Both the position numbers and the translations under genes were made by a program. This document shows, one piece after another, positions 26,321-49,982 of a stretch of DNA of 64,000 nt; position 1 is the stretch's first letter, and each line of letters starts with the position of its first letter. Below the pieces are notes generated by a model that did not search any database, was not told the origin of the DNA, and was given only the letters and a program-made list of their open reading frames with translations. Origin of the DNA: Myxococcales bacterium (lineage in GTDB: Bacteria > Myxococcota_A > Polyangia > Fen-1088). Location of the stretch: assembly GCA_025350815.1 (NCBI GenBank), contig JANXXE010000113.1:1-64000 (forward strand), read 5' to 3'.

Positions 26321-26827
26321 CTACTTCAGGCCGATTTCGGCACGGCGGTTCTTGGCCCACGCCGATTCGTCGTGTCCGTCGGCCTTCGGCCGCTCGGAAC
26401 CGTAGGTGACGATCTCGACCTTGTGGCCCGGGATCCCCATCTTCTGAAGAAAGTCCTTTGCGGCCCGCGCGCGCTCTTCGCCCAGCGCCAGGTTGTACTC
26501 GGTGGTCCCTCGCTCGTCGGTGTTGCCTTCGATGCGAATGGACGCGTTGGTCTTCTTGGCGGTCTCGGCGATCTTCGCCAGCAACGGGCGCGCGTTCTCG
26601 CTCAGCGCGCGCGAATCGTAATCGAAATAGATGACGTTGCCGCTGGCGTCCGTCAGATTGTCCTTGCCGTCACCCTTGTCAGCGGCGGCCGGGGACGAAG
26701 GCGACTTGTCGAGTTCCGCAAGCGATCCCGTGGACCTGCCCTTACCCGCCTCTTGCGGGTGCGAGCACCCGACGTGCAATCCCCCAACCACGAGCGACAA
26801 CGCGAACACGAATCTCGACCTGGCCAT
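26321..26827 (-). CDS. pal: Peptidoglycan-associated lipoprotein (OmpA-like)
   Basis: 168 residues from ATG 26827, which follows AGGAGG; the upstream in-frame extension is not needed. Signal peptide ends GGLHVGC, an imperfect lipobox, then a Ser/Asp/Lys linker and an OmpA-like domain: VIYFDYDSRALSENARPLL, IEGNTDERGTTEYNLALGEE (the peptidoglycan-binding core with TDERG) and KNRRAEIGL. Pal anchors the outer membrane to the cell wall with the Tol complex. No tol genes are adjacent, so it is either the Tol-Pal partner encoded apart or one of several paralogues. Confidence 0.88.
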   Translation of the reverse strand: MARSRFVFALSLVVGGLHVGCSHPQEAGKGRSTGSLAELDKSPSSPAAADKGDGKDNLTDASGNVIYFDYDSRALSENARPLLAKIAETAKKTNASIRIEGNTDERGTTEYNLALGEERARAAKDFLQKMGIPGHKVEIVTYGSERPKADGHDESAWAKNRRAEIGLK

Positions 26828-26955
26828 TAGGACCTCCTGCAACGTGAAGATGTTGTGCCGTCTCTTAGCGCCCGGCCGGCCCGCTGACAACCCATTTTTC
26901 GTGGCCGATTTTTCGCAACCGAACTGGGCTATAAGCAGCAACGAAAGGGGCGCTG

Positions 26956-28011
26956 TTGCGGGCCACCATAACCCATAGCGCCATAGCGGTTCCCGGGCAC
27001 GAATTGCCGCAGGACAAGGTCACACGCGCGTTGGCCGGCCTGTTGCCGTTCGCACCGGAACGCCTTGCCGCCGTGATGGCGGTCTTCGACAACGCTGCCG
27101 TAACGCGTAGGTTCAGCGCGTTGCCCCTCGAACAGTTGTGCGTGCGACGCGGCCTTTCCGAAACGATGGCCATCTACCGCGACGAAGCCGTGCGCCTGGG
27201 CCAACGCGTTGCCGAGGAATGCCTGGCCCGCGCCAGCCTGCCCGCGCATGACGTGGACCTGATCATCGCCGTGTCGTGTACGGGGTTCATGTTGCCGTCG
27301 CTGGATGCGTACCTGGCCAACGCAATGGGCATGCGCCGGGACGTGCGGCGACTGCCCATCACCGAACTTGGCTGCGTCGCCGGGGCCGCGGCGCTGGCGC
27401 GCGCCCACGATTTCCTGACCGGCCACCCGCACGGCAAGGTGCTGATCGTTTCGGTCGAACTGCCGACGCTTAGTTTCCAGCAGACCGACGCCAGCTGGGC
27501 CAACCTCGTGTCCACGGCCCTGTTCGGCGACGGCGCGGCGGCCGTGCTGGTGACCGGCGGTGACGCGCCGATCGGCGCGGGCATCGTCGACGTACAAAGC
27601 CACCTGTTCCCGAACACCCTGGACACCCTGGGATTCGACCTGCGCGACGATGGTTTCCACGTGGTCCTGGCCAAGGAACTGCCCGCCTTGCTGCGGGCCC
27701 AGCTTGCCGACGTCGTCGATGGCTTCCTGGCGCGGACCGGCGTCCGGCGCGATCAGCTTTCGTCGGCGCTGCTGCACCCGGGTGGGCGCAAGATCTTGAA
27801 CGCCGTGGAAGAAGGCCTGGGCATTGAACGCGCGCGCACGCAGCCGTCGTGGGACGTGTTGCGCGACTACGGCAACATGTCCAGCGCGTCGATCTTGTTC
27901 GTCTTGCACAACTGGCTTCACCAGCAACATCCCGCCGCCGGGTCACATGGCCTCGTCGCCGGCCTCGGCCCCGGCCTGACCGCAGAGCTGCTGCTGTTGC
28001 GATGGAACTGA
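26956..28011 (+). CDS. Type III polyketide synthase (chalcone/stilbene synthase-like)
   Basis: 351 residues from a TTG at 26956, preceded by GAAAGGGG. The catalytic triad is intact: C140 (ITELGCVAGAAAL), H274 (LLHPGGRKIL) and N307 (DYGNMSSASILFV), with the family GFGPG-like GLGPGLT loop near the C-terminus. Homologues make alkylresorcinols, alkylpyrones or related polyketides from long acyl-CoA starters and malonyl-CoA. The next gene starts inside this one (10-base overlap) and a third follows by ATGA, so a three-enzyme pathway is encoded: polyketide formation, then methylation, then FAD-dependent oxidation. The product class is inferred from the operon, not from residues. Confidence 0.93.
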   Translation: MRATITHSAIAVPGHELPQDKVTRALAGLLPFAPERLAAVMAVFDNAAVTRRFSALPLEQLCVRRGLSETMAIYRDEAVRLGQRVAEECLARASLPAHDVDLIIAVSCTGFMLPSLDAYLANAMGMRRDVRRLPITELGCVAGAAALARAHDFLTGHPHGKVLIVSVELPTLSFQQTDASWANLVSTALFGDGAAAVLVTGGDAPIGAGIVDVQSHLFPNTLDTLGFDLRDDGFHVVLAKELPALLRAQLADVVDGFLARTGVRRDQLSSALLHPGGRKILNAVEEGLGIERARTQPSWDVLRDYGNMSSASILFVLHNWLHQQHPAAGSHGLVAGLGPGLTAELLLLRWN

Positions 28012-28589
28012 CGCTGCCCCTGCTGCTGTTCTACGCCTTGCTGGTGTCGGTCGGCGTCCTGCGTCTGGTTGAACTGCGAATCTCGCAACACCGACGACGG
28101 ATTCTCGCCACCAGGCACATCGCGGCGGTAACCGAGCCGTATTTTGCCGCGATGGTGATCGTCCACGCCGGCATTCTGGTCGGCGCGGCGGCCGAAGCGG
28201 GATTGGCATCGCGCCCCTTCATCCCTGCCCTGGCTGCGGCCGCGCTGCTGCTAACGATCGCCGCGAATGCCCTGCGCTGGTGGGTGATCGCCACTCTCGG
28301 CGCTCACTGGAACGTGCGCATCATGGCGTCGTTGCCGCTGGGGATCGTCAGCGACGGGCCCTACCGTTTCATCCGCCACCCCAACTACGTGGCGGTGTTC
28401 GTCGAGCTGTGCGCGTTGCCGCTGGTTCACAGCGCGTGGATCACCTCTGCTGCCGGCGCCGTTGCACACGCCTGGGTCTTGCACCACCGCATCCGCACCG
28501 AGGACACGATGTTGCTGGCCAGTCCCGCCTATCGCACGGCGATGGCGGGAAAGCCGCGTTTTGTGCCGCGCCTGCCCCGTCGCATATGA
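28002..28589 (+). CDS. Isoprenylcysteine carboxyl methyltransferase (ICMT)-family protein
   Basis: 195 residues from ATG 28002, inside the PKS gene. Four or five membrane helices and the ICMT core: LGAHWNVRIM, then DGPYRFIRHPNYVAVFVELC (the HPxY motif) and RTEDTMLL. Members next to type III PKS genes, such as BpsB in Bacillus, O-methylate alkylpyrones, and SrsB-type enzymes methylate alkylresorcinols, so that is the likely job here. It acts in the membrane with SAM. Overlap with both neighbours implies coupled translation. Confidence 0.9.
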   Translation: MELTLPLLLFYALLVSVGVLRLVELRISQHRRRILATRHIAAVTEPYFAAMVIVHAGILVGAAAEAGLASRPFIPALAAAALLLTIAANALRWWVIATLGAHWNVRIMASLPLGIVSDGPYRFIRHPNYVAVFVELCALPLVHSAWITSAAGAVAHAWVLHHRIRTEDTMLLASPAYRTAMAGKPRFVPRLPRRI

Positions 28590-29722
28590 CCGACGTTCTG
28601 ATTGCCGGCGGGGGCATCGCGGGTGCGACGGCGGCCATCTTGCTGGGGCGGGCGGGTTTGCGCGTCGCCCTCTTCGAACAGCATTCGTTCCCGCGCGACA
28701 AGCCCTGCGCCGAAGGGATCATGCCCGCGGGTGTCGGCGTCCTGCAGCGCCTGGGCCTTGCCGACCAGATAGGCGGCGCCCCGTTCGTCGGCATCCGTTA
28801 TCACGGCTGGGGTCGCACCGTCGGTGGACACTTCCCCGTCGCATCCGGCGTGCCCACGTTTGGCCTGGGACAGCGACGACTGGTCCTGGACCGCGTGTTG
28901 TTCGAGACCGCGCAGGGCACACCGGGCGTGACGGCCCACCAGGCGGCTCAGGTCGATGGCCCTATGCTGGAAGGCGGGCGTGTCACAGGACTGGTCGTGG
29001 GGGGGCGGATTCATCGGGCTGCGCTGACCGTCGGCGCCGATGGTCCGCGGTCGCGCATTCGAAACGCGGCAGGACTCGACGGGCCCCCGGGGCGGCATCC
29101 GCGCCTGGGCGTACGCGCGCATTTTCGCCTGCCAGCGACGGACAGCACGCGCGATCACGTCGAAATCTTTGTCGGCGACGACCACGAGCTTTACCTGACG
29201 CCTTTGCCCGACAACGAAATCGTCCTCGCGGCCTTGAGCACGCGCGCGGAACTCGAAGGCAACGTGCGCGATGTGTTTCCCCGGTGGGTCGCCCAACACC
29301 CGGCACTGGCCACGCGCCTGCGCGGCGCAGAGTCGTCAAGCAACCTCGCGGGCCGCACGCCGCTTGCCAGCCGGGCGCGCGCGGGTGTGTTCCCGGGGCT
29401 GGTGTTGCTGGGCGATGCTGCGGGGTTCCTGGATCCGGTGACAGGCAGCGGGATCGCGCAGGCGCTGCTATCGGCCGAATTGCTGACACGCGTCTTGGTC
29501 CCAGCGCACGGGTTTCACCCGTCGTTCGATCTTCTGCTGGAATTCGACCGCCACAGACGCGCGTTGTTGCGCGACTACGCGATTTTGACCCGGTTCGTGC
29601 TGGCCATCGTCGGCCGCCCGGCCTGGGGCCGGCGCATGCTGGCGCTGATGGACCGTTCCCCCTTGCTGTTCAGTCACCTGATTGGGGTGGCGGGCGGCAC
29701 GCGGCCTCTTGTGCCTTTGTGA
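28586..29722 (+). CDS. FAD-dependent oxidoreductase (geranylgeranyl reductase/hydroxylase-like)
   Basis: 378 residues from ATG 28586 (ATGA overlap). Rossmann motif GGGIAGATAA near the N-terminus, the characteristic DKPCAEGIMPAG and a second FAD motif GDAAGFLDPVTGSGIAQA around 276-293. This is the group that includes geranylgeranyl reductases and SrsC-like aromatic hydroxylases. In the srs operon an equivalent FAD hydroxylase turns alkylresorcinols into quinols and quinones; the same order (PKS, methyltransferase, flavoprotein) supports a hydroxylating role, but reduction of an isoprenoid chain is an alternative given the prenyltransferase next door. Confidence 0.88.
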   Translation: MTDVLIAGGGIAGATAAILLGRAGLRVALFEQHSFPRDKPCAEGIMPAGVGVLQRLGLADQIGGAPFVGIRYHGWGRTVGGHFPVASGVPTFGLGQRRLVLDRVLFETAQGTPGVTAHQAAQVDGPMLEGGRVTGLVVGGRIHRAALTVGADGPRSRIRNAAGLDGPPGRHPRLGVRAHFRLPATDSTRDHVEIFVGDDHELYLTPLPDNEIVLAALSTRAELEGNVRDVFPRWVAQHPALATRLRGAESSSNLAGRTPLASRARAGVFPGLVLLGDAAGFLDPVTGSGIAQALLSAELLTRVLVPAHGFHPSFDLLLEFDRHRRALLRDYAILTRFVLAIVGRPAWGRRMLALMDRSPLLFSHLIGVAGGTRPLVPL

Positions 29723-29729
29723 ACAGAAC

Positions 29730-30650
29730 TCAGGTCAGAAACGCCAGCAGTTCGGCGACGGAGGTTCCGACCAGCAGGGCCACCGACCAAAACGCCAGAC
29801 CTTCCCACCGCCCCGGCTCGCGCCAGTCGCCTTCGAGCACGCGGACGATGCGCCACACACCCAGCGGCGCGCCCACGGCGACCGCAACCGCCACGACGCC
29901 GGGCAGTCCACGCACCAGAAGCACCGGCAACGCCAAATACGCCGCGACGATCAAAAGCACATACAGAACAGCCCCAAGTCGCGGTCCCAGCCGCACCACC
30001 AACGTGCGCTTACCGACCGCCGCATCCGCGGCCGCGTCCGGAAATTCGATGGCCAGCAGCATGGCCACTTGTAGACAGGCCAGGGGAACGAGCCCCAGCA
30101 ACAGGGGCGCCATGCCCACCAACGTCGGCGACTGCAAATAGAAGCCCGCCACCGGCACCAGCGCCGTGACGACCGCTGCCACGGTCAACTCGCCGAAGCC
30201 CGTTGCGTGCAACCGCAGGGGCGGCGCGCTGTATTCCCACGACAGCAACAGCATGGTGAGAAATGTCGGCGTGGCCAGCGGCCCCGCGCGGCCCGTCGCA
30301 CGCAGCAGCGCCAGGGCGCCCAACCCGACGACCAGCAAAGCCAACGCCGCCAGCAGCGCCGCGCCACGCGGGATCTGCCCCGCCACCAGCACGCGGCTGC
30401 CACCCGACCAGCGCGTCGGCGTCACGTTCAGCCGGTCGCCGTCGAAATCGTAGTAGTCGTTCGCGTAGTGGGTCATCAACTGGAACGCCGTGACCGCCAG
30501 TTGCCCCCACAGGTACAGCCACACATCAATAACCGCGCCCGCGCGCGCGGCCGCTGCGGCGCCCAGGCCATACAACACGAAGCCGCCGACAAGAAACAGG
30601 GGCCGGCCCAGACGAATGAAGGCGACCAGGCGGAAGGAAGAAGGCGACAC
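29730..30650 (-). CDS. UbiA/MenA-type polyprenyltransferase
   Basis: 306 residues from GTG 30650. The frame is open to 30896, but the first 82 codons are Arg/Pro/Gln-rich, overlap the 12-bp repeat block and do not look coding. About eight helices; the two Asp-rich substrate motifs are NDYYDFDGDRLN (first) and EFPDAAADAAVGKRTL (second), the latter resembling MenA. The enzyme attaches a prenyl chain to an aromatic acceptor, in menaquinone synthesis or in a secondary pathway. It is convergent with the PKS operon, 7 bases from its end; no other men genes are here, so a role in the phenolic-lipid pathway is possible. Confidence 0.88.
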   Translation of the reverse strand: MSPSSFRLVAFIRLGRPLFLVGGFVLYGLGAAAAARAGAVIDVWLYLWGQLAVTAFQLMTHYANDYYDFDGDRLNVTPTRWSGGSRVLVAGQIPRGAALLAALALLVVGLGALALLRATGRAGPLATPTFLTMLLLSWEYSAPPLRLHATGFGELTVAAVVTALVPVAGFYLQSPTLVGMAPLLLGLVPLACLQVAMLLAIEFPDAAADAAVGKRTLVVRLGPRLGAVLYVLLIVAAYLALPVLLVRGLPGVVAVAVAVGAPLGVWRIVRVLEGDWREPGRWEGLAFWSVALLVGTSVAELLAFLT

Positions 30651-31581: not shown

Positions 31582-31648
31582 GCCGTCATCGTAGCGCGTC
31601 CCGGGCGCCACCGTGTTCATTCAAGATCGCAGGCAAAAAAGGCGATCC

Positions 31649-33004
31649 ATGCTTAGGGAGCCCGTGCTGCATTCAAAGCCACTTTGCGCAGGATTGGCGG
31701 TCACGCTGCTGACCGCGGGCGCGGCCCATGCCGACTCTCTGGCACCGGCCGAAACGATCGACGTGGCGCCCCGGATTTCGCCCAAGCGCCGCGGCGACAA
31801 CGCACCGGCCTTGCTGCGCAGGACGCTGCCGCCGTTGACCTGGGGCGATCTGGCCCAGCCCACCCCACTGTCCGCCGAGGAAGAGTCACTGGCCACCACC
31901 GCCGGTCTGGCGGGCCGCTTCAACCCCGCGATGGCACTTCCCACCCGGGACATCTGGCCGGTCGAGGTTCGGTACGCGTGGAACGACGGATCGGATCTGA
32001 AGGCGCGCGTCGTCGGCAGCGACGGGCGCGTCATGCGCGACTACGTCGCACTGGCCAGGGACAAACTGGCCGGGCACGAATGGGGCGACCTGGCCGAAAC
32101 CGACGCGCAAGGCAACCGCATCGACTATTACGTAGACGCCCCCGGTGACGATCGCGCCGAACAGGGCGTGACGGGCTGGCGTCGTCGCTGGCGTTCCATC
32201 ATGGGCGGCAACGCCGCCACGCACGAGCCGCCGCGCGCCCTCGACTACCCGCCGACACAATATGCCCACCTGTTCTGGTTCAACCGCAGCAAGGGCCTGC
32301 TGGCGATTCAGTACTGGTTCTATTACCCGTACAACGAATGGATCAACCACCACGAGGGCGACTGGGAACGCATCAACGTCATCCTGCGCGGCCCGTCGCG
32401 GCTGACTGACAAGGCGTCCTTTCGGCCCGTCGGCTACCAGTATTTCTTCCACTGCTGGACCTACGAGCCGACGCAGGTCGTGCGCATCCGGGGCGAATCG
32501 GCGCGTGAAGATCACGTGGTGGTGTACGCCGGGGGCTTCAGTCAGTTCCTGTTGTGGAGTGGCTGGAACAGCGGCGGCAGCTACCCTTTGCCGGCGCTGT
32601 TCCCTGCGGTCGGCGGCGGCCTCGGCAAGTGGCGTCCACCCGAGGACACCACGAAACCCGCGCGTTTCATCCGCCCCGAAGACTTCAAAATTATCGTCCT
32701 GCCAGAACCTGAACGGCTGGATGTTGTCGCGAACCCCGACCTTGCCTGGCTGCGATTGTCGTTCTACGCGGGCCAGCCGCAGATGTACCGCAACCCGCTC
32801 AAACTGAACCGCGCTGTCTTTGGCGAGGCCCCGCAGCAACCCGCCCGCCAGTCGGGGTGGAATGCGATCACGAATCCGCCCTACTGGGTTCAGACCCCGC
32901 GGTTTCAGCCCGATCTACTGCGCCTGCCGCGCGGCTGGGGCGCCGTCGTCGATGCGCCCCGCCGGGTTTACGACTTGGCGGCCCGGCGCTCGCCTGTGCG
33001 TTGA
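31649..33004 (+). CDS. Exported Vps62-like protein
   Basis: 451 residues from ATG 31649, with a signal peptide ending AGAAHA. The core YWFYYPYNEWINHHEGDWER matches the signature of Vps62-related proteins, which occur in fungi, plants and actinobacteria; later conserved stretches are GYQYFFHCW and HVVVYAGGFSQFL. No catalytic residues are recognised. It is probably periplasmic or secreted and starts divergently from the proline-rich lipoprotein. The ROK kinase gene follows 33 bases downstream, but a functional link is not evident. Confidence 0.65.
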   Translation: MLREPVLHSKPLCAGLAVTLLTAGAAHADSLAPAETIDVAPRISPKRRGDNAPALLRRTLPPLTWGDLAQPTPLSAEEESLATTAGLAGRFNPAMALPTRDIWPVEVRYAWNDGSDLKARVVGSDGRVMRDYVALARDKLAGHEWGDLAETDAQGNRIDYYVDAPGDDRAEQGVTGWRRRWRSIMGGNAATHEPPRALDYPPTQYAHLFWFNRSKGLLAIQYWFYYPYNEWINHHEGDWERINVILRGPSRLTDKASFRPVGYQYFFHCWTYEPTQVVRIRGESAREDHVVVYAGGFSQFLLWSGWNSGGSYPLPALFPAVGGGLGKWRPPEDTTKPARFIRPEDFKIIVLPEPERLDVVANPDLAWLRLSFYAGQPQMYRNPLKLNRAVFGEAPQQPARQSGWNAITNPPYWVQTPRFQPDLLRLPRGWGAVVDAPRRVYDLAARRSPVR

Positions 33005-39515: not shown

Positions 39516-42500
39516 CTACGCGATCGTCAGCCCGAGATGCTCGCGCAGGCCGAAGTACTCGTCGGAAACGCCCCACTGGATGAGGTCGCGAATCTTTTCC
39601 TTCGGGTCGACGCTGCCTACGGTAATCGGTTCGGACTGGATGGCCCGCGCGGCGATCTCCAAATCGCCACACATCAGGAACCCAGCCCGCGACGACGTGT
39701 AGTCGACGGCGTTGGCCCATTTGTGCAGATCGGCCTCGGCCTTGGTCGCCAGGAACCGCTGCACCACCACGCCCAGTTGCTCGTGCAGCTGCGGCGGCAC
39801 CAGTTTGCGCAAAAGGTCGGTGTATTGCGCCACCGGCTGCTGCAAGTCAGGCTTGATGGGGATCTGCGGCTGCACCAGCCGCAACGCCGCCAGGAAGACC
39901 ACCTTCAATTCGGCCACCGTTGGAACAACGTGTGGCCAGCGCACGAAGTGCTCGGGGCGCATCAGCGTCAGCTTCTTGCCGATGAAATACGCCAGCTCCT
40001 TCTCTTGCCGACCCTGCAGCAGGTTCGACCCGACCACGAACGAAGGCAATAGCTGCGCCTTTTCACGGGCGTTCGCCATGTCCAGCTCGCCGGGCGACTC
40101 CGGCCTCAAATACAGTTCCGGTTGCGGCACACCCAGCACCTGGCTGACGTAGTTGAAAACCTTGGTGAACAGGAGCTGATCGGTTCCTGGATCCCGGCGG
40201 TCCTTGCGCTTGAGCCCCCAATCCTTGTGCTCACGGGCCCGAACCGCCGCCACCGACTGACTGACTGCCGCGAACACGTGGGAAATGAAGCGATCCTCGT
40301 CGGGGTGGTAAAGGCTCTTCTGCCACAGCTCCTCGGTCAGACGTGCCCGCGCACGTGCGAAGGTCTTGGCCTTCCATTGTTCGTGGAATTTCTGTTCCTC
40401 GGCATCCGCCTGCCGCAGGAACGTCAAGCCCGCCGTGGCACACCAGGCGCGATCGTACTGGTTCAGTTCCAGGTACAGCCGCCGCAACGTCTTGAGATAG
40501 CCACCAATCTGGCCAAAATCTTGTGATTGCTTGATGAGGAAACGGTATTCCTTGACCGCCTTGTCATAGAAATCCGGCCCCGACATCTGGTACAGCTCGG
40601 CCAGGATCTGGTGCCGCGGCAGCGACGCTTCGGGATCCAATTTCACGCACACCTCGAACGCTTCCGTCGCGGCCGGGTAGTTCTTCAGGCGCGATCGGTA
40701 GATCTCACCCAGCGCGTGCCACAGGGCAACCTGCGTCGCGCGCTTCTCCGGGGCAACCTCTTGCCCCATCCGTTTGATCATCCGGCGGTAGCTGCGCTCC
40801 TGGTTCTTCCAGTCCTTCTTCGCAGTCATGATCTTGTCGATCCGCTCGAAGACCTTCAGATTGTCGGGGTCCTGATCCAGGGCCTGGTTGTAGAACTCGA
40901 CCGCTTCATCGGCCGAGTGCAGCTCGTAGTTGGTGATGTTGCCGGCCGCCTCCAGGTACTTGGCGCGCACCTTGCCCTGCTCGACCCCGGCCAGGCGCAG
41001 CAAAATCTCCACCGCCTTCTTCCATTGCTTGGTCTCGGTGAAGAGATCCAGCACGTCGTGCAGCAGATTGTGGGCGGCAGGCTTGATCTCCAGCGCTTCC
41101 AGATAGGCCGCAATCGCCTTCTGCGGATTCTTCAGCTGCTCTTTGTAAATCCGGATGATTTGCTCGTAGACAGCCAGCTTCTCGTCGGCGTCCGCCGTGT
41201 GACCCAGGAACGCCCGCTTCTGGCGAATGACCGCCTCAAAGTCGCCGGCCTGCGTGTAGATCTCCGTCAAGGCATCCAATGTGGGACGGTGCCCGGGCTC
41301 GATCTCCAGAACCTTGTCGAACATGTTGATGGCCTTGGCGCGCTCGCCGACCTTCAGCTTGATCTGCCCAATCCGGTGGAAGATGCCGACGATTTCGCCG
41401 TCGTTCTGGGCCTCCCGGTGGTGCACCAAGATCGTCTGGTACAGCTTGAACGCATCGTCCCACTGCTCGCGTCGGAACAGCAGCGCCGCGCGGTCCAGCA
41501 ACGTCGGCAGATGCGTGGCGTCCAGATCGTAGGCTTGCTTGTAGTACCGCAGCGCCTTGTCGCCATCGCCCAGCTGGTCGGCCGCTTTCGCCAGCCGGTA
41601 ATACATCAGGTTCAGATCGCGATTGACCTTCCGATCGCTCTTCCGAACCAACATCTCCAGCAGTGGCACCAGCCGCGCCCATTCTCCGCGCTGAAAATAG
41701 ATCGCGGACAGCGGCTCGGCCGCCTCGACGTGCTCCGGATCCAGCTGCAGCGTGCGCGCGAACAAATCGGCGGCCCCCGCCTCGTCCCCCAGATCGCCCT
41801 GCATGATCTTCCCTGCCTCGAACAGCAGGCGCGTCTTTTCCAGCGTGTTTTGCGTGTGCGCTTCGGCACGCACCATCAACTGCGCCGCCTTCATCGAATC
41901 GCCGCGCCGCTTGTACAGGTTCAGCAGCGACAGCATGCTGGGCACGTGCGAGGGATCGAGCGCCAGAGCCTCCAGCAGACGCTCCTCGGCCTGCTCGGGC
42001 ACCCGCATCTGTTCGTCGTAGATCTTGCCCATGCGGTAGTGCAGGTCGACCTTTTCGCGCGGCTCGGCCGTGCCCACCAGGCGCTGCATGACATTCACCG
42101 CGCGCTCCCACTGCTCGGTGTGCTCGTATAGCTTGGCAAGGCCCCGCAAGGACGCGACGTGGTCGGCGTCGAAGGTCAGAACGTCGTTGTACGCCTCGAT
42201 GGCGTGCTCCGGATCCTGCAACTCGTCCTCGTAGACCTTGCCCATCCGGTTGTAAAGCTCGGTCCGCTCGGCCGGATCCTCGGCCACGTAGATGTGCTTG
42301 CGATAGTTTTCCGCCAGGGCATCCCAGCGACGCTCTGTCCGATACAGGCGTTCCAGATCGCGGTACGCCTTCTGGTTCGCGTCGTCGATAAGCAGAATCT
42401 TCTGCAGGTAGTCGATGGCCCTGTCGGCCTTGCCGAACTGTTCCTCCCAGACGGTGGCCATCCGTTGGTACAGGCCCACCCGATCCTCGTCCGAGCCTGT

Positions 42501-45500
42501 GACCTCGAGCTGATGCTCGATCGTATCGAGATACAGCTCCATCTTGCCGGTCTTTTCGTAAAGACGCTCCAGCGCCTTCAACGCCTGAAGATTCTGCGGG
42601 TCGACAGTCAACACCTCGCGGAAGGCCTCGATCGCGCGATCGTTGTCGCCCAGACGTTCCTCCCACAGTTCACCGACCTGCAGGCGCATCTTCACGGCGA
42701 TTTCGCCGTCGTCGACGGTGTGCGACTTCTTGCTCAGCACCTCGACCAGGCGATCCCAGGCCTGCGTCCGCCGGTACAGGCGCTCCAGGGCCTCGATGGC
42801 CGGCAGGCATCTGTCGTCGGCGTCCAGCGCCTGCTGGTAGGCGATTGTCGCCTGCGCGCCGTCGCCAATCTGCGACTCGTAGGTCGCTGCCAGCGCCAGC
42901 AGGGTCTCCACCCGCCGTTCACCGTCCGTCTCGACCTCAGCGTGGCGGGTCAGCGCCGACACCAACTCGCGCCAGTGCGAGCCCTTTCGGTAGAAATCCT
43001 CAAGGGCGGACAGCGCGCCGATGTGCCCACCGTCAAGTGCCAGGGCCTGACTGGCGGACGCCACCGCGTACTCCAGATGCCCCAGGGCCGAATCGTACCA
43101 GCGGCCAATCTTCACCCACAGATCGGCGGCCTGCTTGGCGTCCGGGATCCCCTGCACCACCTGCGTGTAGTCCGACAACAGCTCGTTCCACTTGCCCGCC
43201 ACCGTCGCAAGACGTTCCAGCTCCTTCGCCACGGTGTCGTTCGAGTAGTCCTCGCGAAAAGCCGCTTGCAGCGTCACGAACGCACTTTCGCGATCGTCCA
43301 GCTGGGTCTCGTAGGTCTCTGCTACCTGGCACAGAAGGCTGATGCGTTCCTTCGGCTCGGCGACAAATTCGGTCCGCGCCAGCAACAGCTCGATGAGCCG
43401 CATCCAGCTTTTGCGCTGGCGGTACAGTTGTTCGACCTCGGCGGATGCCGTGGCGTTGCCGGGATCGATGGCCAACACGCGCTCGTAAACTTCCGCGGCC
43501 GCGCCACCGTCGCCGATCTTTTCGGACCAGATGCTGGCGACCTGCATCAGAACATCGACCTGTTCGTCGGGCGTGGTCAGCGCCGCCGAACGACGTTCCA
43601 GCACCTCGACGCACTCTTCCCAGCGCGCCTCCTGCGTGAACAGTGTCTCCAGCGCCGCCAGGGCCCGGAAGTCCCGGGAATCCAGCTCCAGCACCATGCG
43701 CCACGCGCGGATCGCGGCATCGGTCCGCATCAGCGTGCCGCCCTCGATCTCGCCGAGCTGCGAATACAGATCCTTCAAACTCTCGGGACCCAGAGCCGCG
43801 CTGCCCAGATCGATCAGGCTCTGGAGGGTCTCGGACAATTCCTCCCACGCGCCGGCGCTGCGGTAGTTCTCGGCAATCGCCCGCAGGGCCTCCACGTCGC
43901 TCGGATCAATCGCCAGCACATGCTGCCAGCATTCAAGGGCATTGCGCTCGCGCGACAGCTTCTCGCCCCAGACACGCCCCAGGCGCTTGTAGACGGGGAT
44001 CTTGACCATCGGCTCGTCGGTCGCACGGATCTGCAGATCCAGCACCTCCGTCAGTTCGCGCCACTCGGACGCCTGCTCGTGCAGATCGGCCAGGGCCGAC
44101 AGCGCCAGCGGATCGGCGCCGCGCAAATCCAGCACCTTCTGCCACAGTTCCACGGCACGCTGGGGTTGGCCGAAGACCTCCGAAGCGATGCGCGCCATCC
44201 GCGCGTAACAGTCCGACATGGCCTGGTCGCCCGGTGCGATGTCCAGCGTCTTCTCGTAGATCCCGAACAGGTCTTCCCAGCGCTCGGCGCGGAAATACAG
44301 TTTCTCCAGCGCCTCCAACGCCTCCGGCGAGCGCGATTCCTGTTCAAGCACAGCCAGGTAGCTGGCGGTCGCACCCGCCGCGTCGTCCAGTACGTCGGCC
44401 TGCAGTCGTCCAAGGCGCAGGTACATGCCGACCAGTTCCTTCGAATCATCCGTTATGGCGATGCGTCGGCGCAGTACCTGGCCAAGCTCGTCGAAGGTCC
44501 CCTGCTTGTCGTAGATGCGATCAAGGAAGGCCAGCGCCAGGGCGTCCTGGGGGTGCTCTTCCAGTACCTGGACGAGGACCTCCTCGGCACGGGCCAAATC
44601 CGCCAGATCCGTTTCGAAGACCGCCGCAAGCCGCAACAGCGCATCCCGACGCGCCGCCGGATCGCGCAGGTTCGCCGCCCCCTCCAGCATGGTGCTCACG
44701 AACCCGTCCCACTGCCGCGTCACCCGCGCCAGCCGCAGCAACTCGTCCAGCGATTGCTCCGACGACGCGTTCTCGACGACGGCCTTGGACCACCAGTCGA
44801 ACGCCGCGACCTGGTCCAGCAGCTTGTTCTCGGCCAGATCGGCCAGGCGTCGCAGCAGATTTTGACGCTCGTCCGGATCCGTCAGGCGCCCCAGCTCCAG
44901 CTGGTAAACGTCGACCAGCTTGTCCCATTCCTCGCCCGTGCGGTACAGGGGCTCCAGCACCTGGGCGATCTCCGCCTGCAGGGATCCGCCCACCAGCATG
45001 CGCTCCAGTGCCGCGCGCGTTTCGCGGTGGTTGGGATCGGCCAGCAGCACTTCCTGGTAGGACTCGACCGCCTTCGGCAAATCACCCACCGCCAACTCTA
45101 GAATCTGCGCCAACCGGAAGGTCAGCTCGATGATTTCCGCCTCGGTGCCGGCCAACCGCGTTTCCCGTCGCAGAACCTCGACCAGCTCGGGCCAGCTCTG
45201 GGTAGACGTGTACAGACGGTCGAGGGCAACCAAACCATCTCGGCGATCGGGCTCCGCGTCCGAGACGCGCCGGTAGGCCGTGACGGCCTTGTCAGGCTCG
45301 CGGGTTTCTTCCTCGTAGATGCGCGCCGTGCGCATCAGCATCTCGACCTGGATGCGGGTGTCCAGTATGTGCCCGATCTCCGCTTCGTAAACCGCCGCCA
45401 AGTCGGCCCAGCGCACGGTGATCTCGGCCAGGCGTTCCAGATGGGCCACAACGTCCGTGTTGGACGGATCCAGATGCAGGGCCCTGCAATAGGCATCGAA

Positions 45501-48500
45501 CGCCGCATCGACGTTGGACAGGCGCCGTTCATTGAGCGCCGCGATCCGGTTCAGCAGGTCAATCTTGCGCGGCACATCGTCCGTGCTCTTGACCATCACC
45601 TCGTAGACCACCACCACCCGATCCCATTCGCCGGCCGTCTCGTAGATGGGCTCCAGCACCTGCGCCGCCAACAGGGCCGCCTCCGGCTCCTGCGTGCCCG
45701 TCATCATGGACTCAAGCGCCGCCAGGGTTGGCTCGTGCGTCGGCTCCATCATCAGGACCTGCCGGTAGGCCTCGGTCGCACGTGCCAGATCCTTCAGTTT
45801 CGTCCGCCACAGCTCGCCGATGCGGAAACGCAGCGACACCACCTCTGCCGAAGACGGCGAAAGCTCGGTCTGCCGTTCCAGCACCGACAGCAGGTCGTAC
45901 CAGCGCTCTGTCTGCAGGTACAGGCGATCCAGGGCTTGAACGGCCGCGGCATCATCGGGATCAATGTCCAGGATCGACGTATAGGTTTCGATGGCGCGTT
46001 CGGGGTTCGAAAGCTCGCGGTCGTACACCTGCCCAAGAACAAACAGCGTTCGCTTCTTGTCGCCCGGATCGCTGGCCAGCTCGGCCTTGCGCGCGTAAAT
46101 GTCCTTCAGATCGCTCCACCGCGATAGACGCACGTACAGGCGTTCGAGGTTATCGAGCGCGACCGCGTCCGAGGAATCGATGTCGAGAATGCGCCGAAAC
46201 ACCTCGATGGCATTCTCGGGCGCCTCCAGGACCTCTTCATAGACCTGTGCTGCCTTGAAGCCCAGCTCCTTGCGCTCGGCAACGTCATCCAGCATCCCCA
46301 TCTTGCGCTGGTACAGCTGCACCAGCTGCGCGTAGTCCCCGCCCCGCGTCCAGATACGTTCAAGCGCGTTGGCCGCGTCCAGATCTCGGGGGGCGACCTG
46401 CAAAGCCGCCAGGTAGGCCTTGGCGGCCTGGTCATCGCGTCCCAGTTCCTGTTCGGCCAGCGCCGCGATCTTGTGGTACAGGCTGCGCCGCAGCTCGTCC
46501 TCGCCCACCGCTTCGACAAGCGAGGTGTAGCGCGCGACAAGATCTTCCAGCCGCCCCAACACGCGGGCCAGCCGCTCGATGCGCCGCTGCGTCTCGGCTT
46601 CGAGCGGATTTTCGACCAGCGCCCGTCCCAGCGCCTCGTAGGCCTTGTCCGGATCGTCACAGCCGTCCTCGTAGCCGACCGCAATCTCCTGCAGAAGTTC
46701 GATCTTGCGGACCCCGTCGGCCGTGTGGCGGACCTCCGTTTCCAGGACCCGGATCAGATTCGCGAAATCGCCGCGACTTCGATAAACGGGCTCCAGCATC
46801 TGCGCGACGGTCAGCTCGTACTTCGCGTTCGGTAGCAGCCGTTCCAGCGCCGCCACGGTCTCCTCGTGCCCCGGGTCGATCTCCAGCAACTGGCGGTAGC
46901 TGTCAATGGCCGACACGACATCGCCCAGCTTCTGTTCGCGCAGAAGCCCCAGTCGGCCCAACAACCCGACGATGTCGTCGGAATTCGTGGCCAGGTCGAG
47001 CTGCCGCTGCAGATTGTCAGCCAGTTCGGCGGACAGGCCCTTTTGCACAAACAAGCGATCGAGCGCGCGCAGCGCCTTCACGGAACCCGCGTTGTCTCCC
47101 AAAACCTCTCGCCACGCGGCGATGGCCTCGTCGGCCGACGACAGCATCTCCTCCCACACGGTGGCGATCCGGCCGTGGATCTCCTCCCGCTCGCCGGATG
47201 TCTGGACCAGTTCGGCTTTCTTCTTCAGCGTCTCGATCAGATCCGGCCACCGTTCGGTGCGCGTGTACAGCCGCTCCAGTGCCTCCAGCGCCGACGGATC
47301 TTGTGGCTGAATCTCCTGCGCCAGGCGAAAGAATTCGACGGCCTTGTCTGATCGGGCCAGCTTCTCGTCATAGGCCACGGCCGTCACCAACAACAGCTCG
47401 CGCTCGAGGGCGGGGGACAACTTGCGCTCGCCCCCCAGTGCCGCGCCGTAAAGCGCGACCAGGGATTCCCACTTGTTTCCGGTCCCCGCCAGATCCTCCA
47501 GCGCCAACCGCGCGTCCTGCGACGTGGGATCTTCGGTGAACGCCTGCCCGAACGCCTCGTACGCAGCATCCGCGCGCCCCGACGCCGACTCCAGTGCGCC
47601 GATGCGCAACAACAACGCCACCCGCGCCGGCGCCTTCTTGGACGCCGACAAACGAATGCGCTGGGTCTGGATCAGCCGTTCCAGATCCTGAACGGCCTCA
47701 TAAATCGGCTCAAGAGCCACCACCGCTGCCATACGCCGTTTCGAATCGTCCAGGTACGCCTCAAGGGCCGCCCGGGCCCCGGCGTGCGCGGGCTCCAGCT
47801 CCAGCGCCTCTTGGTAGGCGTCGACAGCTTCGTCCCGATCGTCGAGGTGCTGCTCGTGCACCTGACCCAGCCTGAATTTCAGCTCGGCGGACGCGGACTT
47901 GTCGTCCCCCGACAAAGACAGTTCGCGCTCGATCGTCTTGGCCAATTCGGCCCACTGCCCGGTCGTCGCGTAAAGCCGGTCCAGCGCCCGCAAGGCCACC
48001 CCCTCGCTGGGATCGGCCGCCAGAAGTGCCTGGTACAGCTCGATGGCCTTCTTGGAATCGCGAATCTCGTTCTCGTACAGGCCCGCCAGGCGCAAACGGA
48101 TCTCGCGCTTGTCGACGTCGGTTTTGGCCATCGCCAGCTTGGTGTCGTAAATGGCCAGCAGTTCCGCGTGGCGGCCGGTCGAGGCATACAGACGCTCAAG
48201 GGCAGCCAGCGCGCCTTCGTCCTTGGGCAAAAGCGCCAAAATCTGCTTGTTCCGCTCGATCGCTGTGTCGGCGTTCGCCAGCTCGCGCTCGTAGGCGCGC
48301 GCCAGCGGGACCAAAATCGGCAACGCCTCTGCCCCCTTGGTCAGGGACAGGCCCGCTTCATACGCGCGCGCCATGTCCGCCCAGTTGCCAACCTCGGGTG
48401 CCAGCCGCTCGGCCCACTGACGTGGCCAAGCCGCCAGCGGGTCCTCGGAAAACGCCTGCAACGCCAGCGCCGCCGCACCCGCCTTGTCGCCCCCAGGTGC

Positions 48501-49982
48501 ATCCAGAATCTCGGCGATGCGCAACATGCGCTCCTGCCGCTCATCCGCACCCTTGGTGTGGCTCAGCTGAACTTGCAGCACGCTGGCCAGGCGTCGCGCG
48601 TCCTTGGCCTTCTCGTACATCGGGATCAGGGCCTGGGCCGCCACGAGGTTAGTGGCGTCGAGGGCAAGGGCCCGCTCGTAGGCCTTTTGCGCCTTGTCGA
48701 CCTTGGCCAGACGCTCGCCATACAGCTGCGCGATCTTGTTCCACAGGCCTATACGGGTGACGTCGTCCTCGGTCTCTGTCTGCCGTTCGAGGACGCGCAC
48801 GAATTCATCCCACTTGCCCTGAGACGCGTAGAAACCTTGCAGCGCGTTCCAGTCCTTCTGCTGGATGTACAGCTTCCGCAGGGCGTCCTGCGCGCGACGG
48901 TTGTCCGGCTCGGCCGCCAGCAGCGCCTGCCACACGCCCACCGCCCGCTCGTTGTCCTGCACTTTCTCCGAGTACAAGATCGCCAGCTTCAGAAGTATCG
49001 GCCCCTGCTTGCCGGCCGGGGCCAGCGCCGCCTGCTTCTCCAGAATCGACCCCAGGTCAGCCCAGGCTTTTTCGCGCTCGTACAGCTTCTCCAGCTCCGT
49101 CAGCGCATCGGGCTCGCTTGCGTCCTCGACCAGTACCTCGCGCCACAGATCGATCGACGTGGCCGGCTTCTTCAGCTTTTCCGAGGCCAGCTTCGCGACC
49201 TCGATCCGCCGCCGCTTGCGCAGGGCCGGATCCGTCAACCGCCCGATCTCTTCGCGGCTCAGCGCCACCAGCTTGTCCCAGTCGCGCCGCTTCTCATACA
49301 TCTGCTTGAGGTACGCCAGCGCCTCCGCGTGCGCCGGATCAAGCTCAAGAATCGCCTCGAATGCTTTGATGGCCTCCGCCTGATTGGAAAACTTTTCGAG
49401 GTACAGGTTCGCGACGCGCAGATGCAGCGCCACCTTGCCCGCAGGCTCGGTCACCACCGCTGCTTTCTTGCGCAGGATGGAAATCAGTTCGGGCCACTTC
49501 CCGGTTCCCTCGTAACGGGCCGCCAATGCGTCGACGGCCTGAGGATTATCGGGCTGGATCGTCAGGATCTGATTGAACGCGCTGACCACCAACTGGTCCT
49601 GCTTCAAGCGGTCGCGATACACCTCGACCATCTCGAACAGCACGGCCACCTTCGCGTCCGGGGAAGGCCAGGTCGCCTTGTCGACCCCTTCCTTCATGAT
49701 CTCGACTGCGGCTTTCCAACGCTCGGCCTTCTTGTAGACCCGGGCCAGCTCGCGCCGGGGTGCCCAGTCGGCGGGCGCGCCGCCCACCATCTTCTTCCAG
49801 GCGTCTATGCCCTTGTCGACCGAAACTTTTTCGGCTTCGATAGCGGCCGCGACCTGCTGGTGAAGCTCTGCGGGAAAGTCGTCCAGGCCGTTCTTCGACT
49901 GTTGCGATTGGTGCCCGGCGGCGCGGCGATCATCGCGCCCACCGTCGTCTCGGTCTCCAGTAGGTTCCTTAGACTCCCCCAC
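39516..49982 (-). CDS. agmK: Giant TPR protein, AgmK/GltI-like
   Basis: 3488 residues from GTG 49982 (GGAGGA just upstream). No signal peptide: a polar N-terminus leads into dozens of TPR-like helical pairs from about residue 25 to 3100, many repeating a WEEL(V/I) or RAIEAYREVLEIDP pattern (for example ALAALERLYASTGRHAELLA). In Myxococcus the TPR giant of comparable length encoded downstream of gltD-H is AgmK/GltI, required for adventurous gliding, so location and size support the name. Residues about 3307-3488 are not TPR; they resemble an M48 metalloprotease lacking its zinc ligands (see findings). It is followed without a gap by rny and has its own candidate promoter upstream. Confidence 0.75.
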   Translation of the reverse strand: MGESKEPTGDRDDGGRDDRRAAGHQSQQSKNGLDDFPAELHQQVAAAIEAEKVSVDKGIDAWKKMVGGAPADWAPRRELARVYKKAERWKAAVEIMKEGVDKATWPSPDAKVAVLFEMVEVYRDRLKQDQLVVSAFNQILTIQPDNPQAVDALAARYEGTGKWPELISILRKKAAVVTEPAGKVALHLRVANLYLEKFSNQAEAIKAFEAILELDPAHAEALAYLKQMYEKRRDWDKLVALSREEIGRLTDPALRKRRRIEVAKLASEKLKKPATSIDLWREVLVEDASEPDALTELEKLYEREKAWADLGSILEKQAALAPAGKQGPILLKLAILYSEKVQDNERAVGVWQALLAAEPDNRRAQDALRKLYIQQKDWNALQGFYASQGKWDEFVRVLERQTETEDDVTRIGLWNKIAQLYGERLAKVDKAQKAYERALALDATNLVAAQALIPMYEKAKDARRLASVLQVQLSHTKGADERQERMLRIAEILDAPGGDKAGAAALALQAFSEDPLAAWPRQWAERLAPEVGNWADMARAYEAGLSLTKGAEALPILVPLARAYERELANADTAIERNKQILALLPKDEGALAALERLYASTGRHAELLAIYDTKLAMAKTDVDKREIRLRLAGLYENEIRDSKKAIELYQALLAADPSEGVALRALDRLYATTGQWAELAKTIERELSLSGDDKSASAELKFRLGQVHEQHLDDRDEAVDAYQEALELEPAHAGARAALEAYLDDSKRRMAAVVALEPIYEAVQDLERLIQTQRIRLSASKKAPARVALLLRIGALESASGRADAAYEAFGQAFTEDPTSQDARLALEDLAGTGNKWESLVALYGAALGGERKLSPALERELLLVTAVAYDEKLARSDKAVEFFRLAQEIQPQDPSALEALERLYTRTERWPDLIETLKKKAELVQTSGEREEIHGRIATVWEEMLSSADEAIAAWREVLGDNAGSVKALRALDRLFVQKGLSAELADNLQRQLDLATNSDDIVGLLGRLGLLREQKLGDVVSAIDSYRQLLEIDPGHEETVAALERLLPNAKYELTVAQMLEPVYRSRGDFANLIRVLETEVRHTADGVRKIELLQEIAVGYEDGCDDPDKAYEALGRALVENPLEAETQRRIERLARVLGRLEDLVARYTSLVEAVGEDELRRSLYHKIAALAEQELGRDDQAAKAYLAALQVAPRDLDAANALERIWTRGGDYAQLVQLYQRKMGMLDDVAERKELGFKAAQVYEEVLEAPENAIEVFRRILDIDSSDAVALDNLERLYVRLSRWSDLKDIYARKAELASDPGDKKRTLFVLGQVYDRELSNPERAIETYTSILDIDPDDAAAVQALDRLYLQTERWYDLLSVLERQTELSPSSAEVVSLRFRIGELWRTKLKDLARATEAYRQVLMMEPTHEPTLAALESMMTGTQEPEAALLAAQVLEPIYETAGEWDRVVVVYEVMVKSTDDVPRKIDLLNRIAALNERRLSNVDAAFDAYCRALHLDPSNTDVVAHLERLAEITVRWADLAAVYEAEIGHILDTRIQVEMLMRTARIYEEETREPDKAVTAYRRVSDAEPDRRDGLVALDRLYTSTQSWPELVEVLRRETRLAGTEAEIIELTFRLAQILELAVGDLPKAVESYQEVLLADPNHRETRAALERMLVGGSLQAEIAQVLEPLYRTGEEWDKLVDVYQLELGRLTDPDERQNLLRRLADLAENKLLDQVAAFDWWSKAVVENASSEQSLDELLRLARVTRQWDGFVSTMLEGAANLRDPAARRDALLRLAAVFETDLADLARAEEVLVQVLEEHPQDALALAFLDRIYDKQGTFDELGQVLRRRIAITDDSKELVGMYLRLGRLQADVLDDAAGATASYLAVLEQESRSPEALEALEKLYFRAERWEDLFGIYEKTLDIAPGDQAMSDCYARMARIASEVFGQPQRAVELWQKVLDLRGADPLALSALADLHEQASEWRELTEVLDLQIRATDEPMVKIPVYKRLGRVWGEKLSRERNALECWQHVLAIDPSDVEALRAIAENYRSAGAWEELSETLQSLIDLGSAALGPESLKDLYSQLGEIEGGTLMRTDAAIRAWRMVLELDSRDFRALAALETLFTQEARWEECVEVLERRSAALTTPDEQVDVLMQVASIWSEKIGDGGAAAEVYERVLAIDPGNATASAEVEQLYRQRKSWMRLIELLLARTEFVAEPKERISLLCQVAETYETQLDDRESAFVTLQAAFREDYSNDTVAKELERLATVAGKWNELLSDYTQVVQGIPDAKQAADLWVKIGRWYDSALGHLEYAVASASQALALDGGHIGALSALEDFYRKGSHWRELVSALTRHAEVETDGERRVETLLALAATYESQIGDGAQATIAYQQALDADDRCLPAIEALERLYRRTQAWDRLVEVLSKKSHTVDDGEIAVKMRLQVGELWEERLGDNDRAIEAFREVLTVDPQNLQALKALERLYEKTGKMELYLDTIEHQLEVTGSDEDRVGLYQRMATVWEEQFGKADRAIDYLQKILLIDDANQKAYRDLERLYRTERRWDALAENYRKHIYVAEDPAERTELYNRMGKVYEDELQDPEHAIEAYNDVLTFDADHVASLRGLAKLYEHTEQWERAVNVMQRLVGTAEPREKVDLHYRMGKIYDEQMRVPEQAEERLLEALALDPSHVPSMLSLLNLYKRRGDSMKAAQLMVRAEAHTQNTLEKTRLLFEAGKIMQGDLGDEAGAADLFARTLQLDPEHVEAAEPLSAIYFQRGEWARLVPLLEMLVRKSDRKVNRDLNLMYYRLAKAADQLGDGDKALRYYKQAYDLDATHLPTLLDRAALLFRREQWDDAFKLYQTILVHHREAQNDGEIVGIFHRIGQIKLKVGERAKAINMFDKVLEIEPGHRPTLDALTEIYTQAGDFEAVIRQKRAFLGHTADADEKLAVYEQIIRIYKEQLKNPQKAIAAYLEALEIKPAAHNLLHDVLDLFTETKQWKKAVEILLRLAGVEQGKVRAKYLEAAGNITNYELHSADEAVEFYNQALDQDPDNLKVFERIDKIMTAKKDWKNQERSYRRMIKRMGQEVAPEKRATQVALWHALGEIYRSRLKNYPAATEAFEVCVKLDPEASLPRHQILAELYQMSGPDFYDKAVKEYRFLIKQSQDFGQIGGYLKTLRRLYLELNQYDRAWCATAGLTFLRQADAEEQKFHEQWKAKTFARARARLTEELWQKSLYHPDEDRFISHVFAAVSQSVAAVRAREHKDWGLKRKDRRDPGTDQLLFTKVFNYVSQVLGVPQPELYLRPESPGELDMANAREKAQLLPSFVVGSNLLQGRQEKELAYFIGKKLTLMRPEHFVRWPHVVPTVAELKVVFLAALRLVQPQIPIKPDLQQPVAQYTDLLRKLVPPQLHEQLGVVVQRFLATKAEADLHKWANAVDYTSSRAGFLMCGDLEIAARAIQSEPITVGSVDPKEKIRDLIQWGVSDEYFGLREHLGLTIA

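Follow-up and report, generated by a model that had tools for sequence, protein, structure and literature searches.

A type III polyketide synthase operon with a linked UbiA prenyltransferase in a Myxococcota_A family suggests a polyketide-isoprenoid lipid pathway

To our knowledge, isoprenoid quinones build their rings through the shikimate/chorismate route, and polyketide quinones draw their tails from fatty acids. The closest described systems are the pkqABC/srs operons of Actinomycetota, composed of polyketide synthase (PKS), methyltransferase and flavoprotein genes (PMC9927152), whose product in mycobacteria and Streptomyces is a methylated polyketide quinone used at low O2 (PMC9927152, PMC5916927). 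The hierridin operon (hidABC) and Planctomycetota operons likewise combine a type III PKS, a methyltransferase and an oxidoreductase (PMC8086630, PMC10896814), with long-chain fatty-acid starters and no prenyltransferase except in one cyanobacterial cluster (PMC8086630). A myxobacterial alkylpyrone cluster, BGC0001831, compared here by description only, shares the type III PKS and the broad bacterial group, and is reported to be conserved in Myxococcia but not in the Polyangiia covered by that study (PMC12766979). Here we describe a type III PKS operon adjoined by a UbiA-superfamily prenyltransferase gene in a Myxococcales bacterium (GCA_025350815.1, a 4.5 Mb draft, 98% complete), carried on a 64,000-nucleotide stretch of contig JANXXE010000113.1 (contig 40 of the draft; hereafter the window). 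The locus unites polyketide head-group chemistry with a quinone-type prenyltransferase.

The operon comprises genes for a type III PKS, an ICMT-like membrane methyltransferase and a flavin adenine dinucleotide (FAD)-dependent oxidoreductase, with the UbiA gene converging on the last of these (Table 1). The methyltransferase and flavoprotein genes meet in an ATGA overlap, and the gene overlaps suggest that the three are co-transcribed as one operon. All four products match Pfam families above the gathering cut-offs: Chal_sti_synt_N/C (1e-23 and 7e-21), ICMT (4.8e-25), FAD_binding_3 (8.8e-23) and UbiA (6.4e-24). Only 7 bases separate the stops of the flavoprotein and UbiA genes. The open reading frames (ORFs) and coordinates bear out the four-gene layout of the initial annotation, which had further proposed that the convergent UbiA could prenylate the aromatic product of the operon.

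Comparison of 18 genomes of the same family, with PKS orthologues defined by >50% identity, reveals that the four genes travel together as a conserved biosynthetic unit. PKS orthologues are present in 13 of the 18, and a UbiA of the window type occurs in the same 13 plus one further genome, G006; the other four genomes without the PKS lack this UbiA as well. In G006 the N-terminus of a U32-family protein is joined to a truncated methyltransferase-UbiA ORF and the PKS is absent, an arrangement that looks like a deletion scar. Five genomes (G000, G005, G007, G011 and G001) have the window layout, with UbiA convergent on and adjacent to the PKS-methyltransferase-flavoprotein set; that of G001 is assembled across two contigs, each holding part of the flavoprotein gene. 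In six relatives (G012-G017; L038-L043), the methyltransferase orthologue and UbiA form a single ORF of ~505-510 residues, directly after the PKS and with no in-frame stop, the ORF of G012 being interrupted by a contig end. Both the ICMT and the UbiA domain are found in the fusion proteins (for example, L041:3947-5479 and L042:7495-9024). Among 379 genomes surveyed across the phylum, 104 had PKS matches, and 49 loci outside the family were examined. Eleven of the 13 family genomes with the PKS show the UbiA-operon adjacency, against 0/49 other PKS loci of the phylum, which argues against chance. The methyltransferase-UbiA fusions and the PKS/UbiA co-occurrence together support a functional link between UbiA and the operon, and we hold it very probable that UbiA belongs to the pathway.

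From the gene set we infer the reactions, their order, the starter and the redox role. The type III PKS would condense malonyl-CoA on a starter, giving an aromatic polyketide; the MenA-related UbiA would C-prenylate the ring and the ICMT-like membrane enzyme would methylate it. The flavoprotein would then use O2 to hydroxylate the ring to the hydroquinone/quinone level, a step that a predicted U32 iron-sulphur protein may perform without O2 in sister genera. A small starter is favoured, with the isoprenoid serving as the lipid tail. The predicted product is an aromatic polyketide lipid that is prenylated, methylated and hydroxylated; its most plausible form is a membrane quinone additional to menaquinone. 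We assign this single-pathway explanation of the four genes a probability of roughly 0.65. The product is likely to be a prenylated aromatic polyketide, and its working as a quinone is slightly less than an even bet. Somewhat doubtful is the fullest version, a respiratory isoprenoid quinone whose head group would be made by a type III PKS and not from chorismate, whose tail would now be a prenyl chain attached by UbiA in place of a fatty-acyl starter, and whose hydroxylation would exist in O2-dependent flavoprotein and O2-independent U32 versions in sister genera. The hybrid polyketide-isoprenoid reading is the best supported, resting on the fusions, the co-occurrence and the distinctness of this UbiA from MenA.

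The flavoprotein is found in seven of the 13 PKS-bearing genomes and the U32 protein in the other six, never both in one operon; this count leaves out a U32 fragment at a contig end in G003, a genome with 6% contamination. In the six fusion-bearing genomes, the U32 gene immediately precedes the PKS and has the same orientation. Its product matches PF01136 weakly (37.6 bits), gave no hit in an NCBIfam search and retrieved only a weak collagenase-family match in a PDB sequence search. In the six sequences, from genera g7 and g5, a CX3CX23CX3C motif is invariant and is accompanied by a C-terminal Cys cluster. U32 members act as hydroxylases on quinone rings and RNA, and the iron-sulphur proteins UbiU/UbiV are O2-independent quinone hydroxylases able to replace flavin hydroxylases (PMC6747719, PMC10470549). 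The operon protein resembles UbiU/UbiV in its family and its four conserved cysteines, and differs in its weak Pfam match, its Cys spacing and the lack of a second U32 partner in the operon. By analogy, it may carry out O2-independent ring hydroxylation in the sister genera. Paralogues ~36% identical to it adjoin genes judged by eye to be chorismate-mutase-like (L115, L116 and L117), which fits prephenate as the oxygen donor, as suggested for the U32 protein RlhA (PMC10470549); these sets are possible prephenate-dependent hydroxylase units. A GGR-like FAD gene follows the U32 gene in L116 and L118.

Upstream of the operon U32 gene, three of the six loci carry a qNOR-type nitric oxide (NO) reductase gene (L041:284-1717, L042:11205-13604 and L040:13293-15266), directly so in two g7 loci and with a metE-like gene intervening in L040. 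These quinol NO-reductase neighbours and the replacement of flavoprotein by U32 are in keeping with a quinone that serves under O2 shortage, and so speak against a prenylated aromatic polyketide that acts not as an electron carrier but as a secreted or membrane-protective meroterpenoid (antibiotic, phenolic lipid or pigment). Many type III PKS products are of these kinds, and the patchy presence in the family (13 of 18 genomes) is as expected for secondary metabolites; a meroterpenoid is accordingly a tenable answer, with the balance leaning away from it.

The active site of the PKS bears on the starter. The window PKS has an intact Cys-His-Asn catalytic triad, and its relatives in the PDB include PKS11 (4jao, 208 bits) and THNS (1u0m, 202 bits). 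In 30 of the 49 outside loci a fatty-acyl-AMP-ligase gene lies near the PKS, most of these loci also having ICMT-like methyltransferase and FAD genes, and no UbiA of any class occurs among these 30 ligase-type loci. No such ligase is linked to the family PKS, and none was found in any PKS-bearing family genome at E <= 1e-60. At CHS positions 132/194/197/256, all 13 family enzymes read C/P/S/F, against V/C/T/W in 30/30 ligase-type enzymes, as in PKS11, and C/C/C/Y in THNS. The column equated by inference with ArsB W281, from an alignment without ArsB, holds Phe in 13/13 family sequences versus Trp in 30/30 ligase-type sequences. The THNS-like extra Cys (C106) is present in 13/13, and Phe replaces Tyr224 in 13/13. 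In THNS/RppA, Tyr224 matters for malonyl priming and Cys106 may help chain extension; in ArsB, Trp281 matters in resorcinol cyclisation (PMC6274091). In the PKS tree, the family falls on the side of THNS without entering its clade, and it also lies outside the clade of PKS11-like alkylresorcinol/alkylpyrone enzymes. Since this tree does not derive the family PKS from the ligase-type one, the operon looks like a mosaic. As the weakest step of the argument, the ligase-type pathway would take its lipid tail from a fatty-acyl starter and the family pathway from prenylation.

The active-site change to a THNS-like Cys together with a Phe, and the lack of the ligase, suggest that the starter is a different and probably smaller one. 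This disfavours a pathway with both tails, in which a fatty-acyl starter is kept and UbiA prenylates an alkylresorcinol-type ring, giving an alkyl-prenyl hybrid phenolic lipid. Bacterial type III PKSs are often promiscuous for acyl starters, and THNS accepts them (PMC6274091); the PKS of a Streptomyces operon flanked by a divergent UbiA is of the Trp type, and the los PKS, whose locus has a UbiA gene three genes away, gave alkylresorcinols in a heterologous host (PMC7587189). We regard the two-tailed lipid as unlikely. Still less probable is a plain srs/pkq-type operon, in which a long-chain alkylresorcinol from a fatty-acyl starter is converted to an alkyl polyketide quinone and the convergent UbiA adjoins it by coincidence. 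Its gene content is that of the polyketide-quinone (PMC9927152) and Planctomycetota (PMC10896814) operons, and no UbiA is visible next to the three-gene operon in G003 and G008. It fails to account for a UbiA that is fused to the methyltransferase in six genomes and accompanies the PKS in 13/13, for a PKS with Phe at the ArsB W281-like site and outside the PKS11 clade, or for the absence of a linked or clearly related fatty-acyl-AMP ligase. The parallel with the srs operon drawn in the initial annotation thus holds for gene content and breaks down at the PKS itself, which falls outside the PKS11-like clade and lacks the tryptophan. Relative to pkqABC/srs, the family adds UbiA, fused to the methyltransferase in relatives, has Phe for Trp281 of ArsB/PkqA and gains the extra THNS-like Cys.

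The window UbiA retains both Asp-rich Mg-diphosphate motifs, NDYYDFDGD and DAAADAAVGK. It shares with the MenA and MqnP prenyltransferases the UbiA superfamily and a MenA-like second Asp-rich motif, and differs from them in forming a separate clade, scoring below the equivalog cut-offs and occurring beside a menaquinone enzyme. Its best MenA-model score in NCBIfam is 55 bits against a cut-off of 264, below all MenA cut-offs, compared with 287 bits for the MenA of G119/G122, and a PDB sequence search gave only a marginal UBIAD1 match. The UbiA tree separates the window type from the MenA, MqnP, CtaB, DPPR and EboC types. The source genome has five UbiA-family genes; by setting and NCBIfam match, the other four are a heme O synthase in the form of a CtaA-CtaB fusion, an MqnP-type enzyme, a decaprenyl-phosphate phosphoribosyltransferase and an EboC-like protein in an ebo-like cluster. 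The MqnP-type gene belongs to a futalosine cluster on C155 that also contains UbiE/MenG, a polyprenyl synthase and MqnC, and MqnP is present in 16 of the 18 family genomes. Because the futalosine cluster has its own prenyltransferase and every MenA cut-off is missed, the window UbiA is, as judged from genome comparison, not the menaquinone enzyme. Genus g30, from another family, carries window-type UbiA at 54-59% identity plus MenD, with a true MenA beside MenD in G119 and G122, the latter without a window-type UbiA; its window-type copies were considered as the MenA of that genus and ruled out on the MenD adjacency. That the window UbiA is the organism's MenA placed here by chance is scarcely credible: its best NCBIfam matches are MenA models and its second Asp motif is MenA-like, but it scores 55 versus 264 bits, an MqnP-type enzyme serves the futalosine cluster, no MenD over the cut-off occurs in the source genome, and g30 keeps a true MenA beside MenD besides the window type. 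The initial annotation had raised the case of UbiA grouping firmly with MenA in a genome without another menA; it forms instead a clade of its own, and the MqnP-type enzyme lies elsewhere.

Two observations on the surroundings of this UbiA type stand apart. G119 and G361 have a MenA-type gene elsewhere in the genome besides an orphan window-type UbiA. In genus g2, UbiA is closely preceded, on its own strand, by a gene judged by eye to be SodC-like (L044:2006-2533 and L046:12684-13217).

Comparable gene sets recur in other bacteria. In two Bacteroidota-type loci from metagenome-assembled genomes (MAGs), found in a contig scan with a single PKS sequence (L006:6010-10049 and L007:6005-9899), UbiA is divergent from a type III PKS followed by a class I methyltransferase and an FAD enzyme. 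On a Streptomyces sp. NBC_01237 megaplasmid (L212, 970887-983912), UbiA is divergent from an srs-like PKS-ICMT-FAD operon with a Trp-type PKS. The UbiA proteins of all three share 12-25% identity with the window UbiA and fall in other parts of the tree, so that different prenyltransferases were recruited independently. The alphaproteobacterial plasmid loci examined have PKS and ICMT genes and no UbiA. The los locus of Micromonospora endolithica has consecutive genes for a UbiA-family prenyltransferase, a methyltransferase, an acyl-CoA dehydrogenase and a type III PKS (PMC7587189, Table 1). It resembles the present set except that the flavin-type enzyme is the acyl-CoA dehydrogenase; when losA was activated in Streptomyces albus, the alkylresorcinols obtained were unprenylated, and the UbiA gene was given no role (PMC7587189). 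A prenyltransferase also occurs in one cyanobacterial type III PKS cluster (PMC8086630). The suggestion that the hybrid lipid or quinone had not been described therefore needs qualifying: UbiA beside a type III PKS is already on record (PMC7587189, PMC8086630), while in the open-access literature we found no paper assigning a role to UbiA beside a bacterial type III PKS. Recurrence in other phyla means that the combination is not unique to the family, which lowers its novelty and strengthens the functional reading.

Several points weigh against the single-pathway explanation. The family genomes are related draft MAGs, and the p-values for PKS/UbiA co-occurrence (Fisher p = 0.0016) and for adjacency in the family versus outside PKS loci (p ~1e-10; 51 outside loci, namely the 49 of the phylum plus L006 and L007, whose UbiA was found only afterwards) are descriptive and overstate independence. 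The UbiA gene and the operon of G003 sit on separate contigs, and G008 allows no judgement of linkage. Close relatives of UbiA occur without a linked type III PKS in genus g30 (54-59% identical; L092-L096) and in G361 (51%; L156:8631-9554), and UbiA of this type can therefore have another substrate. The flavoprotein could be a GGR-like prenyl-chain reductase instead of a hydroxylase: it scores 122 bits on NCBIfam GG-red-SF, under the cut-off of 158.8, and sequence search does not separate hydroxylase, halogenase and GGR types. The NO-reductase adjacency is confined to one genus.

If the proposed pathway is true, it would represent a third way of building a membrane redox lipid, and its product may be an undescribed quinone-type lipid. 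With flavoprotein and U32 replacing one another, it would also offer a testable instance of hydroxylases being swapped between oxic and anoxic chemistry. The plant cannabinoid and daurichromenic-acid pathways pair a type III PKS with a UbiA, and the locus would be a bacterial counterpart of that logic. The gene combination also provides a pattern by which unassigned clusters of several phyla can be searched for.

Table 1. Features of the PKS-UbiA locus and its upstream flank (window coordinates)
Feature	Position	Strand	Details
Type III PKS	26956-28011	+	351 residues; TTG start at 26956, stop 28009-28011, AAAGGGG upstream
ICMT-like membrane methyltransferase	28002-28589	+	195 residues; ATG 28002, stop 28587-28589; 10-base overlap with PKS
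FAD-dependent oxidoreductase, GGR/UbiH/monooxygenase group	28586-29722	+	378 residues; ATG 28586, stop 29720-29722
UbiA-superfamily prenyltransferase, MenA-related, distinct from MenA	29730-30650	-	~306 residues; stop end 29730, probable GTG start 30650
Intergenic region, expected site of operon promoter	26828-26955		From sequence layout, between Pal-type lipoprotein gene and PKS
Pal-type lipoprotein gene, divergent	26321-26941 (ORF)		Upstream of PKS operon; probable start near 26827

The intergenic region upstream of the PKS contains no match to the sigma-70 consensus. Beyond the operon, leuS lies upstream alongside the Pal-type lipoprotein gene. Elsewhere in the window, a 463-residue protein encoded on the plus strand (31613-33004) has no match in Pfam and NCBIfam searches, and an ORF of 3488 residues on the minus strand (39516-49982) consists largely of TPR repeats.

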